NCBI GenBank assembly: GCA_016868395.1
Contig: VGGW01000002.1
Span: forward strand, 1-41,309
Source of the DNA: Bacteroidota bacterium
Lineage (GTDB): Bacteria; Bacteroidota; Bacteroidia; Sphingobacteriales; Sphingobacteriaceae
Length of the DNA stretch: 41,309 bases
Direction: 5' to 3'
Below the pieces are notes generated by a model that did no database searches, was not told the origin of the DNA, and saw nothing but the letters and a program-made list of their open reading frames with translations. The position numbers and the translations under genes are program-made. Positions 30,862 through 33,124 of this stretch are shown piece by piece. Each line of letters starts with the position of its first letter. Within the stretch, counting starts at the first letter, position 1.

Positions 30862-31962
30862 CTATTTAATCGTTCTTTTTCTATTTTTTATGTAATCTTC
30901 AAAAATATATTCACCCAATCCTTTCAAGGAACTATAAAATGCTTTTCCCCCATTAATTTCCGTAAATTGTCTAACAAATTGTTGAAGATAAGGATCTCTT
31001 GCAATCATAAAAGTGGTAATCGGGATTCCGAGGCGTTTACACTGTGCAGCCATTCCAAGAGTCTTGTTAACTACTTTTCTATCCAGACCAACACTATTTT
31101 TATAATATTTGGCTCCTTCCTTTAAACAGGTAGGCTTCCCATCCGTGATCATAAAGATTTGTTTATTATGGGTCTTTCGTCTCCGAAGCAAATCTACAGC
31201 AAGTTCCAATCCTGCATAAGTATTCGTGTGGTAAAGCCCCACCTGAAGATAGGGGAGTTCCTTAAGGGTTATCGGCCAGGCATCATTTCCAAAAACCACA
31301 ATATCTAATGTATCTTTTGGATATTTCGTTCGAATTAACTCTGCAAGCGCCATCGCTACCTTTTTTGCCGGTGTGATTCTATCCTCACCGTAGAGAATCA
31401 TCGAATGAGAAATATCAATCATTAGGACGGTTGAAGTAATCGTCTTGTAATCCTTTTCCTCAACTTCAAGATCTCTTTCAGTCATTGAGAAGTCACCTAT
31501 CCCATAATTAATCTGAGCATTATGAATCGAAGCAGTCATGTCTATTTGATCCAGACTATCTCCAAACTGAAATTCTCTGCGGTCGGCATTTTTCTCCTCA
31601 CCTAGTCCTGAGATATTTGTATTATGTCCACCTTTACCTGATTTTTTTAGCTTACCGAAGATCTCTTCAAGTGCTGATTGCCTGATGGTTTGCTCGGTTT
31701 TGGAAGTGATTTTAAAGTCATTAGGATTCTGATCATCATTTCCTAAATAACCCTTGTTTTTCAAGTCTTCGATGAAATCACCCATTCCATAGTCATCACT
31801 GGTTAATTTATATTTCTTATCCAATTCATTCATCCAGCTTAGAGCTTCATTCGCATCACCGGAAGTATAATTCAGCAGTTCAAGAAATAATTTTAAAAGC
31901 TCATCAAACCCTCCTCTCGGAAGATCATTCGGAGTAAATTTTGAGAATTGGTGTCCCCGCAT
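30862..31962 (-). CDS. VWA-domain protein paired with the AAA+ ATPase
   Basis: Protein of 366 aa with no signal peptide or membrane helix. The C-terminal half (about 178-365) is a von Willebrand A domain with a complete MIDAS: DISHSM (D183, S185, S187), the Thr in YHTNTYAGLE and the Asp in MITDGKPT. The N-terminal half is a charged helical region without a recognised domain. It is the first gene of a run with the AAA+ ATPase and is expected to act as its substrate adaptor, as in ChlI-ChlD and MoxR-VWA pairs. The target is unknown. Confidence 0.9.
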   Translation of the reverse strand: MRGHQFSKFTPNDLPRGGFDELLKLFLELLNYTSGDANEALSWMNELDKKYKLTSDDYGMGDFIEDLKNKGYLGNDDQNPNDFKITSKTEQTIRQSALEEIFGKLKKSGKGGHNTNISGLGEEKNADRREFQFGDSLDQIDMTASIHNAQINYGIGDFSMTERDLEVEEKDYKTITSTVLMIDISHSMILYGEDRITPAKKVAMALAELIRTKYPKDTLDIVVFGNDAWPITLKELPYLQVGLYHTNTYAGLELAVDLLRRRKTHNKQIFMITDGKPTCLKEGAKYYKNSVGLDRKVVNKTLGMAAQCKRLGIPITTFMIARDPYLQQFVRQFTEINGGKAFYSSLKGLGEYIFEDYIKNRKRTIK

Positions 31963-32192
31963 GGTTTGATTGTACCTTGAATATATTAGACAGCGAAGTT
32001 AAAGGTTTATGGATCCAAATATGTTATGAACATGTCAAATAAAGATTCGATCTGTATATTTTAACCTGAGTTCGATATATGAAAGGTAAAGAAATACCCA
32101 CATCATGGTTCTCAAGCCGCTCCGCAGGCGTATGATTGGATTTTGGAAAGCAATACCTGCGTGTTATCGCTTCCTTTAGTCCTTTCCTCCGG

Positions 32193-32214
32193 AGTATTTC
32201 CGGCAAGAAATACT
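32193..32214. other. Perfect 8-bp hairpin with CGGCAA loop
   Basis: AGTATTTC and GAAATACT flank the hexamer CGGCAA. The loop is part of one copy of the octamer repeated in this region. Confidence 0.6.
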
Positions 32215-32674
32215 ACCTGATTTCAGATGATCGGTAGCCGGAAGATACCTCCTTCGGCAAGGTTTAGTTTACCCGCTGCTGTTTTTTATCGGGAGGGGCA
32301 GTCCGGTAATAGAACCCCAGGCCCTGTGAAACAAACCCGGGTGGCAGACCTATCTTTTTTGCATTTCTGAATGTTAGGTGAGCTATTCAACTTTCGGCAA
32401 AAAAATAGGGCAGAACACGGGACTGGAATAAGCCGGGAGCAACAGATCCTGCTTTCCCAAAACTGATAAAAATAATCAGCCTCCGGCAAGAGCATATATC
32501 GATCTCAGATTAATTTATATTCTTAGCCACTCTTGTCGGCAGAAAGATGAAGCCATATTTTGATTATCCTGTTATTTTGTTAGAGGGGAGGGTATGCCTT
32601 AAAAAAACATTAATAAAAAGCTTCGTATTAAGATAATAATGAGTGTATTTGACTATAGCTTTATTTTTGCCGGA
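32199..32674. repeat. Five dispersed copies of octamer TTGCCGRA
   Basis: Four copies lie on the minus strand at 32199-32206, 32253-32260, 32393-32400 and 32482-32489, and one on the plus strand at 32667-32674. Spacing is irregular. They are confined to the gene-free region. Confidence 0.6.
32662..32669 (+). promoter_or_regulatory. Candidate -7 element upstream of the NTF2-like gene
   Basis: TATTTTTG matches TAnnTTTG exactly, 29 bp before the ATG at 32699, a fitting distance for a short leader. A -33 TTTG at normal spacing is not seen. It overlaps the plus-strand TTGCCGGA copy. Confidence 0.4.
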
Positions 32675-32698
32675 CAGCAATAATCCGTATCTTTAAGT

Positions 32699-33124
32699 AT
32701 GAAAAAACTAATCCTACTCATTCTATTTTTAGTTAAGATTATACCGGTAGCAGCTCAAGATGATGACAAAAAATTAATTCTTACAGTTTTAGAAAATCAG
32801 AGGATGGCATGGAACAGAGGAGATATTCCGGAGTATATGCAAGGGTATTTGAAATCTGATTCATTGCTGTTTGTTGGCAAAAGCGGACCGAAATATGGGT
32901 GGGAAAATACGCTTGCAAATTACCAGAAAAGTTATCCAGATAAGCAGTCCATGGGTTTTTTAAGTTTTAGGATCAGGCAGGTAAAGTTGTTTTCGCCAGA
33001 TCATGCATTCGTTTTAGGTGCCTGGCATCTGAAACGGGAAAAGGACGAACCTCAAGGATACTTTACACTTATTTTAATCAAAGTTCAGGGCCAGTGGAAG
33101 ATCATGGCTGATCATTCAAGTTAG
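32699..33124 (+). CDS. Secreted NTF2-like protein (DUF4440/SnoaL type)
   Basis: Exported protein of 141 aa with a signal peptide (1-19, ending VAAQ). The pattern ILTVLENQRMAWNRGDIPEYMQGY, then GWENTLANYQKSYP and the closing GYFTLILIKVQGQWKIMADHSS, is the NTF2-like fold of DUF4440 proteins. No catalytic residues are obvious, and family members vary widely in role. It stands alone and converges on the SDR gene with a 4-bp gap. Confidence 0.85.
   Translation: MKKLILLILFLVKIIPVAAQDDDKKLILTVLENQRMAWNRGDIPEYMQGYLKSDSLLFVGKSGPKYGWENTLANYQKSYPDKQSMGFLSFRIRQVKLFSPDHAFVLGAWHLKREKDEPQGYFTLILIKVQGQWKIMADHSS

Follow-up and report, generated by a model that had tools for sequence, protein, structure and literature searches.

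A probable MITE-like element of Daejeonella built around an inverted pair of Flavo-1-type hairpins

Introduction

Flavo-1 (RF01705) was annotated as a probable RNA by Weinberg et al. in 2010 (PMC2864571), and its role has been unknown since. Bacterial MITEs, exemplified by MITECca01 of Cardinium (PMC9769881) and the MITEs of Porphyromonas gingivalis (PMC4596501), are short, non-coding sequences with terminal inverted repeats that recur within a genome. REPs measure 20 to 40 bp and carry a conserved tag at one end (PMC3733652).

MITEs and Flavo-1 are thus already known; here we describe an element of Daejeonella (Sphingobacteriaceae) that is MITE-like and has an inverted Flavo-1-type dimer as its core. 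Like the bacterial MITEs cited above, it is short, non-coding, bounded by terminal inverted repeats and repeated in the genome; unlike them, it has no identified parent insertion sequence, and it carries a conserved, covarying pair of hairpins. With Flavo-1 it shares the same hairpin, as judged by covariance models, the same phylum, and a multicopy presence (for Flavo-1, in many genomes of the family). It differs from Flavo-1 in that its hairpins fall below the Rfam threshold, are paired in inverted orientation, and share the space between terminal inverted repeats with additional sequence.

Results

The window analyzed is a 41,309-nucleotide stretch of contig VGGW01000002.1 (assembly GCA_016868395.1). 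One gap between its ORFs, at 31963-32698, spans 736 bp and the next largest 249 bp, which bears out the description in a first-pass annotation of a gene-free island among gaps otherwise shorter than 300 bp. That annotation was also right that the core of the island is richer in G+C than other intergenic DNA (46% versus 28%): the G+C fraction is 0.461 over 32064-32510 and 0.47 over 32090-32500, whereas the whole window averages 0.379 and its other intergenic DNA 0.277. The ORFs within the gap, which it had called unconvincing, are indeed all short, the longest encoding 69 aa on the minus strand. An Rfam scan of the window matched no family, and ARAGORN found no tRNA in the element. The gap holds ∼94 bp of ancestral DNA at its left, a 447-bp element and a second insert, laid out as follows.

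30862-31962, minus strand: flanking gene, VWA_2 domain protein, 366 aa (Pfam PF13519)
31963-32056, no strand: ancestral intergenic DNA (∼94 bp) upstream of the VWA-domain gene, aligning with intergenic DNA of six Daejeonella genomes (L397-L402)
32057-32063, no strand: target-site duplication, left copy TATTTTA, adjoining the ACC end; 6 of 7 positions identical to its partner TAATTTA
32064-32510, plus strand: 447-bp non-autonomous mobile element (the preferred reading), with terminal inverted repeats enclosing two Flavo-1-type hairpins as an inverted dimer; at least 115 copies; absent from the orthologous site of six sister genomes
32064-32077, plus strand: left terminal inverted repeat ACCTGAGTTCGATA, common to copies
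32497-32510, minus strand: right terminal inverted repeat, minus-strand reading ATCTGAGATCGATA, common to copies
32511-32517, no strand: target-site duplication, right copy TAATTTA, partner of TATTTTA at 32057
32526-32690, no strand: second insert, 165 bp, a short dispersed repeat that is unrelated to the element and that sister genomes lack
32699-33124, plus strand: flanking gene, DUF4440 protein, 141 aa (Pfam PF14534)

The island is an insertion between the VWA and DUF4440 genes. In six other Daejeonella genomes the VWA protein is 94 to 96% identical and the same DUF4440 gene comes next, and in five of the six the SDR gene that follows is kept as well; the distance between the VWA and DUF4440 genes in these genomes is ∼120 to 135 bp. 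Excision of 32064-32510 with one target copy, together with 32526-32690, restores alignment with the sister intergenic DNA, and the orthologous site is empty in all six genomes at this locus, the one examined.

The dispersed repeat that the first-pass annotation had put forward was confirmed by searches that found matches across the genome itself and in relatives within the genus. A search of the genome (2.99 Mb in 320 contigs) gave 39 further strong matches, most of them covering query positions ∼95 to 560, and the scored candidates were 81 to 93% identical. A 22-bp core pattern, allowing three mismatches, occurred 59 + 56 = 115 times, against none for the reversed control; the copy number is a lower bound, at least 115, and at ∼430 bp per copy the element makes up ∼1.6% of the genome. 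The exact core in this species' version had no match in GTDB genomes, and the genus version had many. A pattern scan of named genomes placed the element in Daejeonella. Among 201 genomes of the family, DNA-level relatives were present in 11 of the 20 Daejeonella genomes sampled, several with tens of copies, and 24 other genera had none. Copies are intergenic and enriched in gaps between convergent genes (29/83 and 34/90, versus 16/109 background pairs).

The inverted ends of the element read ACCTGAGWTCGATA. The pair ACCTGAGTTCGATA / TATCGATCTCAGAT, 14 to 17 bp long, is common to copies; aligned copies run from ACCTGAGTTCGATA to TATCGATCTCAGGT between TA-rich flanks, and matches to the terminal repeat number 72 + 65 in the genome, versus 1 + 3 for the control. 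Exact 7-bp direct repeats adjoin the ends in 8 of the 68 copies that have both ends present, where shuffled pairing gave a mean of 1.4 and a maximum of 6 in 1,000 shuffles. Perfect duplications are a minority; others have one mismatch or are 5 to 6 bp long, with the form TA-N1-3-TA, and 7-bp TA-N3-TA duplications were seen at other copies. The window copy's own 7-bp duplication has decayed to TATTTTA/TAATTTA. Its inverted ends and target duplications, together with the empty orthologous site, mark it as a mobile element; remains of one had also been suggested for the island.

Near-full-length copies across the genus measure ∼380 to 550 bp, and variants occur. Some copies in the same genome end in CTCACCTAAATTAGATTG (for example, L078, L080, and L092); in this subfamily the right end is longer, and an apparent second terminal repeat (GATATCGAACTCAG) comes after it. 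At L121, L125, L128, and L285, also in this genome, a variant internal module around CCGATGGAAAACAGCTCCGGGT is joined to the P3 half and the right end, and these variants perhaps represent a longer ancestral form of the element.

No transposase gene was found between such ends in the 1.47 Mb of locus sequence examined, and candidate ORFs between the ends carry non-transposase domains (Pfam); multicopy transposase genes are easily lost in a fragmented draft, such as this assembly. Partial copies of the 165-bp repeat also lie beside other copies of the element (L026, 1363-1487; L096, 1179-1262; L066, 1248-1308). In relatives, a family of ∼200-bp repeats has near-identical inverted ends, AACGTGAGTTCGATATTA (L218, 1191-1391; L220, 2458-2643; L226, 863-1065; L229, 4028-4228). 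These repeats resemble the element in lying between genes and in having nearly the same ends, although their interior has no match to the element model; the similar ends fit an enzyme shared with the element, which probably mobilizes both.

The interior of the element was compared in a structure alignment of 102 copies from nine genomes, in which internal blocks are strongly conserved. Its hairpins are as follows.

32181-32262, minus strand: P1 hairpin, Flavo-1-type unit, antisense (Flavo-1 reads in sense along the minus strand); pairing in the stem 98% over 102 copies
32263-32314, plus strand: P2 hairpin, many G-U pairs, weaker support; 79 to 92% of cells paired in alignment A1
32336-32421, plus strand: P3 hairpin, Flavo-1-type unit, sense; supported by covariation

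The stem of P1 is near invariant, with one clearly covarying pair in which T-A is replaced by G-C through double changes in several genomes. P3 has 113 double-changed cells distributed over 16 of its 22 pairs, versus a shuffled mean of 40 and maximum of 56, and 91% of cells are paired; in a cleaner subset 96% are paired and the observed covariation was reached in none of 500 shuffles. The P1 and P3 shuffles ignore the relatedness of copies, which makes the covariation strong but short of formal proof. Sliding the partner strand halves the pairing in both hairpins. In P3, G-U cells outnumber A-C cells (127 versus 55), a strand test that is informative for P3 and not for P1. RNAalifold returned no structure for P3 from alignment A2 because MAFFT had misplaced an A-run, and alignment A3 was used instead. 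Two of the stable hairpins reported in the first-pass annotation are thus backed by comparative evidence, although single-sequence folding (z scores of -0.84 and -1.13) did no better than shuffles. In L038, L048, and L049, from two genomes, a G+C-rich insert of ∼50 bp (GCTGGTGCGCGCGTGCC...) interrupts P2 or takes its place. We also considered a closing helix, P0, between TTTTGGAAAGCA and TGCTTTCCAAAA; the sequence is conserved, but it shows zero compensatory changes and pairs no better than shuffled sequence, so P0 does not count as a demonstrated helix.

When nearest copies are compared, the P1 stem diverges by 0.035, the P1 loop by 0.168 and the arms by 0.13 to 0.17. The stem is nearly gap-free and four to five times more conserved than the loop, a figure to be read with the fact that copies in this genome were found partly with a pattern overlapping the 3' end of the P1 stem, whereas copies in relatives were found by BLAST. 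The contrast has the same direction, to varying degree, in six other genomes (for example, 3.1% versus 27%). Such conservation is not expected if dead MITE copies decay neutrally. Individual copies may be of use, insertion may be limited to copies that fold, or ascertainment may play a part.

Covariance models were built for P1-P2 (R1) and for P3 (R2). Over 401 genomes of the order, R1 matched, besides the genomes that bear the element, five from a second genus (E values of 7e-6 to 4e-4), and it matched no further genomes among 396 across the phylum. Rfam scans of loci from four of these five genomes identified three as Flavo-1 above the gathering score, in the same place on the opposite strand. 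Flavo-1 loci in the genome itself are matched likewise by R1 (L283, E value of 1.5e-6; L284, 1.1e-6). R2 matches the same Flavo-1 loci as R1 but on Flavo-1's own strand, opposite to R1; the loci matched by both are L245, L247, L248, L274, L279, L283, and L284. Furthermore, in other copies of the element R2 matches P1, on the opposite strand (for example, L036, E value of 2.2e-9), and R1 matches P3 on the minus strand of the window copy itself (L001, 1818-1965; E value of 2.8e-7). A Smith-Waterman comparison of the left half with the reverse-complemented right half gave only a marginal match. The reciprocal model matches, each on the opposite strand, show that P1 and P3 are Flavo-1-type hairpins in inverted arrangement, diverged so far that Rfam's model does not score them. 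The window did not reach the gathering score of RF01705 (42 bits) and was not listed at E values up to 10; an RF01705 search of the whole genome likewise listed only other places. We therefore class the element as a relative of Flavo-1 and not as a member.

RF01705 itself is widespread in the family, with matches in 101 of 151 genomes (77 over the cutoff) and 19 of 25 genera, and in none of 14 controls. Several genera have at least 25 to 29 copies per genome, and others have one. The canonical Flavo-1 loci of this genome, L283 to L288, have none of the element's context apart from a ragged end at L285. Tandem arrays of canonical units also occur, spaced 321 and 232 bp apart (L268 in genome G081; G081:C11:193590-194286). 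Among the single-copy loci of other genera (L299 to L303, L305 to L307, L309, and L311), some look as if they sit just after the end of a conjugative-transposon (RteC-like) gene, judging by the translated end of the neighboring gene.

Discussion

We interpret the island as a MITE-like, non-autonomous element that has an inverted Flavo-1 dimer at its core and was inserted at a TA-rich target, a reading to which we assign a probability of about 0.87. The element is short and has no transposase gene and no ORF longer than 69 aa; it has terminal inverted repeats and a target-site duplication, and it is present here and absent at the orthologous site elsewhere. Copy number, compensatory changes in the hairpins, and the homology of P1, P3, and Flavo-1 complete the evidence. 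An inverted pair of Flavo-1-type units would have become enclosed by ACCTGAGWTCGATA ends, giving rise to the element, and a transposase recognizing those ends would move it in trans. Here it inserted between the VWA and DUF4440 genes, duplicating ∼7 bp, and the 165-bp repeat inserted beside it. The hairpins may be kept because spread depends on them, through folding of RNA or single-stranded DNA or through protein binding, or they may serve some RNA function for which the element is the vehicle.

The most serious competitor is that each copy is a locus for a host-beneficial regulatory or structural RNA, one of a dispersed, retained sRNA family whose mobility is secondary or past. The constraint on the P1 stem, seen in this genome and six others, speaks for it, as do the excess of G-U over A-C cells in P3 and the annotation of Flavo-1 as a probable RNA (PMC2864571). 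However, copies show no orientation bias relative to neighboring genes (22 versus 17 among same-strand pairs), the sister species lack the element at the one site examined, and the search pattern that overlaps the stem qualifies the constraint itself; we consider this reading unlikely, though it deserves weight. Much less can be said for a cis-regulatory, riboswitch-like leader of the VWA or DUF4440 gene. The position suits one, in a divergent intergenic region upstream of both genes, but the empty sites, in sister genomes that retain both genes, already contradict it, and more than 100 copies lie beside other genes in all four orientations. Such a leader is highly improbable.

A REP/BIME-type palindromic family moved by a RAYT (TnpA-REP) transposase would likewise be extragenic, palindromic, high in copy number and enriched between convergent genes, yet a 447-bp unit with 14- to 17-bp terminal inverted repeats and a target duplication does not have the REP anatomy described above, a 20- to 40-bp palindrome tagged at one end, and we regard this origin as very unlikely. 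The mobile features and short ORFs might instead be what is left of a mobile element that once encoded protein, or mark a pseudogene, but the longest ORF inside encodes 69 aa, near-full-length copies keep a common size across the genus, and conserved positions track the paired stems; we give this the least credence of all. The first-pass annotation had named a complete lack of homologues, or protein-like substitution in a short ORF, as grounds for rejecting a structured RNA or repeat, and neither was found. Each of its three guesses, structured RNA, dispersed repeat, and mobile element, was correct in part; for the first, what stands is that the element holds two covarying, RNA-like hairpins with kinship to Flavo-1, which may act either as RNA or as DNA.

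For a family that has been a probable RNA since 2010, the link with a mobile element that is high in copy number, and whose ends, target duplications, and empty site are defined, offers a concrete route to the question of RNA or DNA action. It also advises caution in annotation, as multicopy "sRNA" families may be mobile repeats, and the constrained stems of individually diverged copies pose an evolutionary puzzle. We tentatively suggest that Flavo-1 may be the structural core of a Bacteroidota mobile-element family and not simply a dispersed sRNA gene. The Daejeonella inverted dimer, enclosed in terminal inverted repeats, present in more than 100 copies and with stems individually kept by selection, would then be a MITE for which a folded RNA or single-stranded DNA is either a requirement or a cargo.
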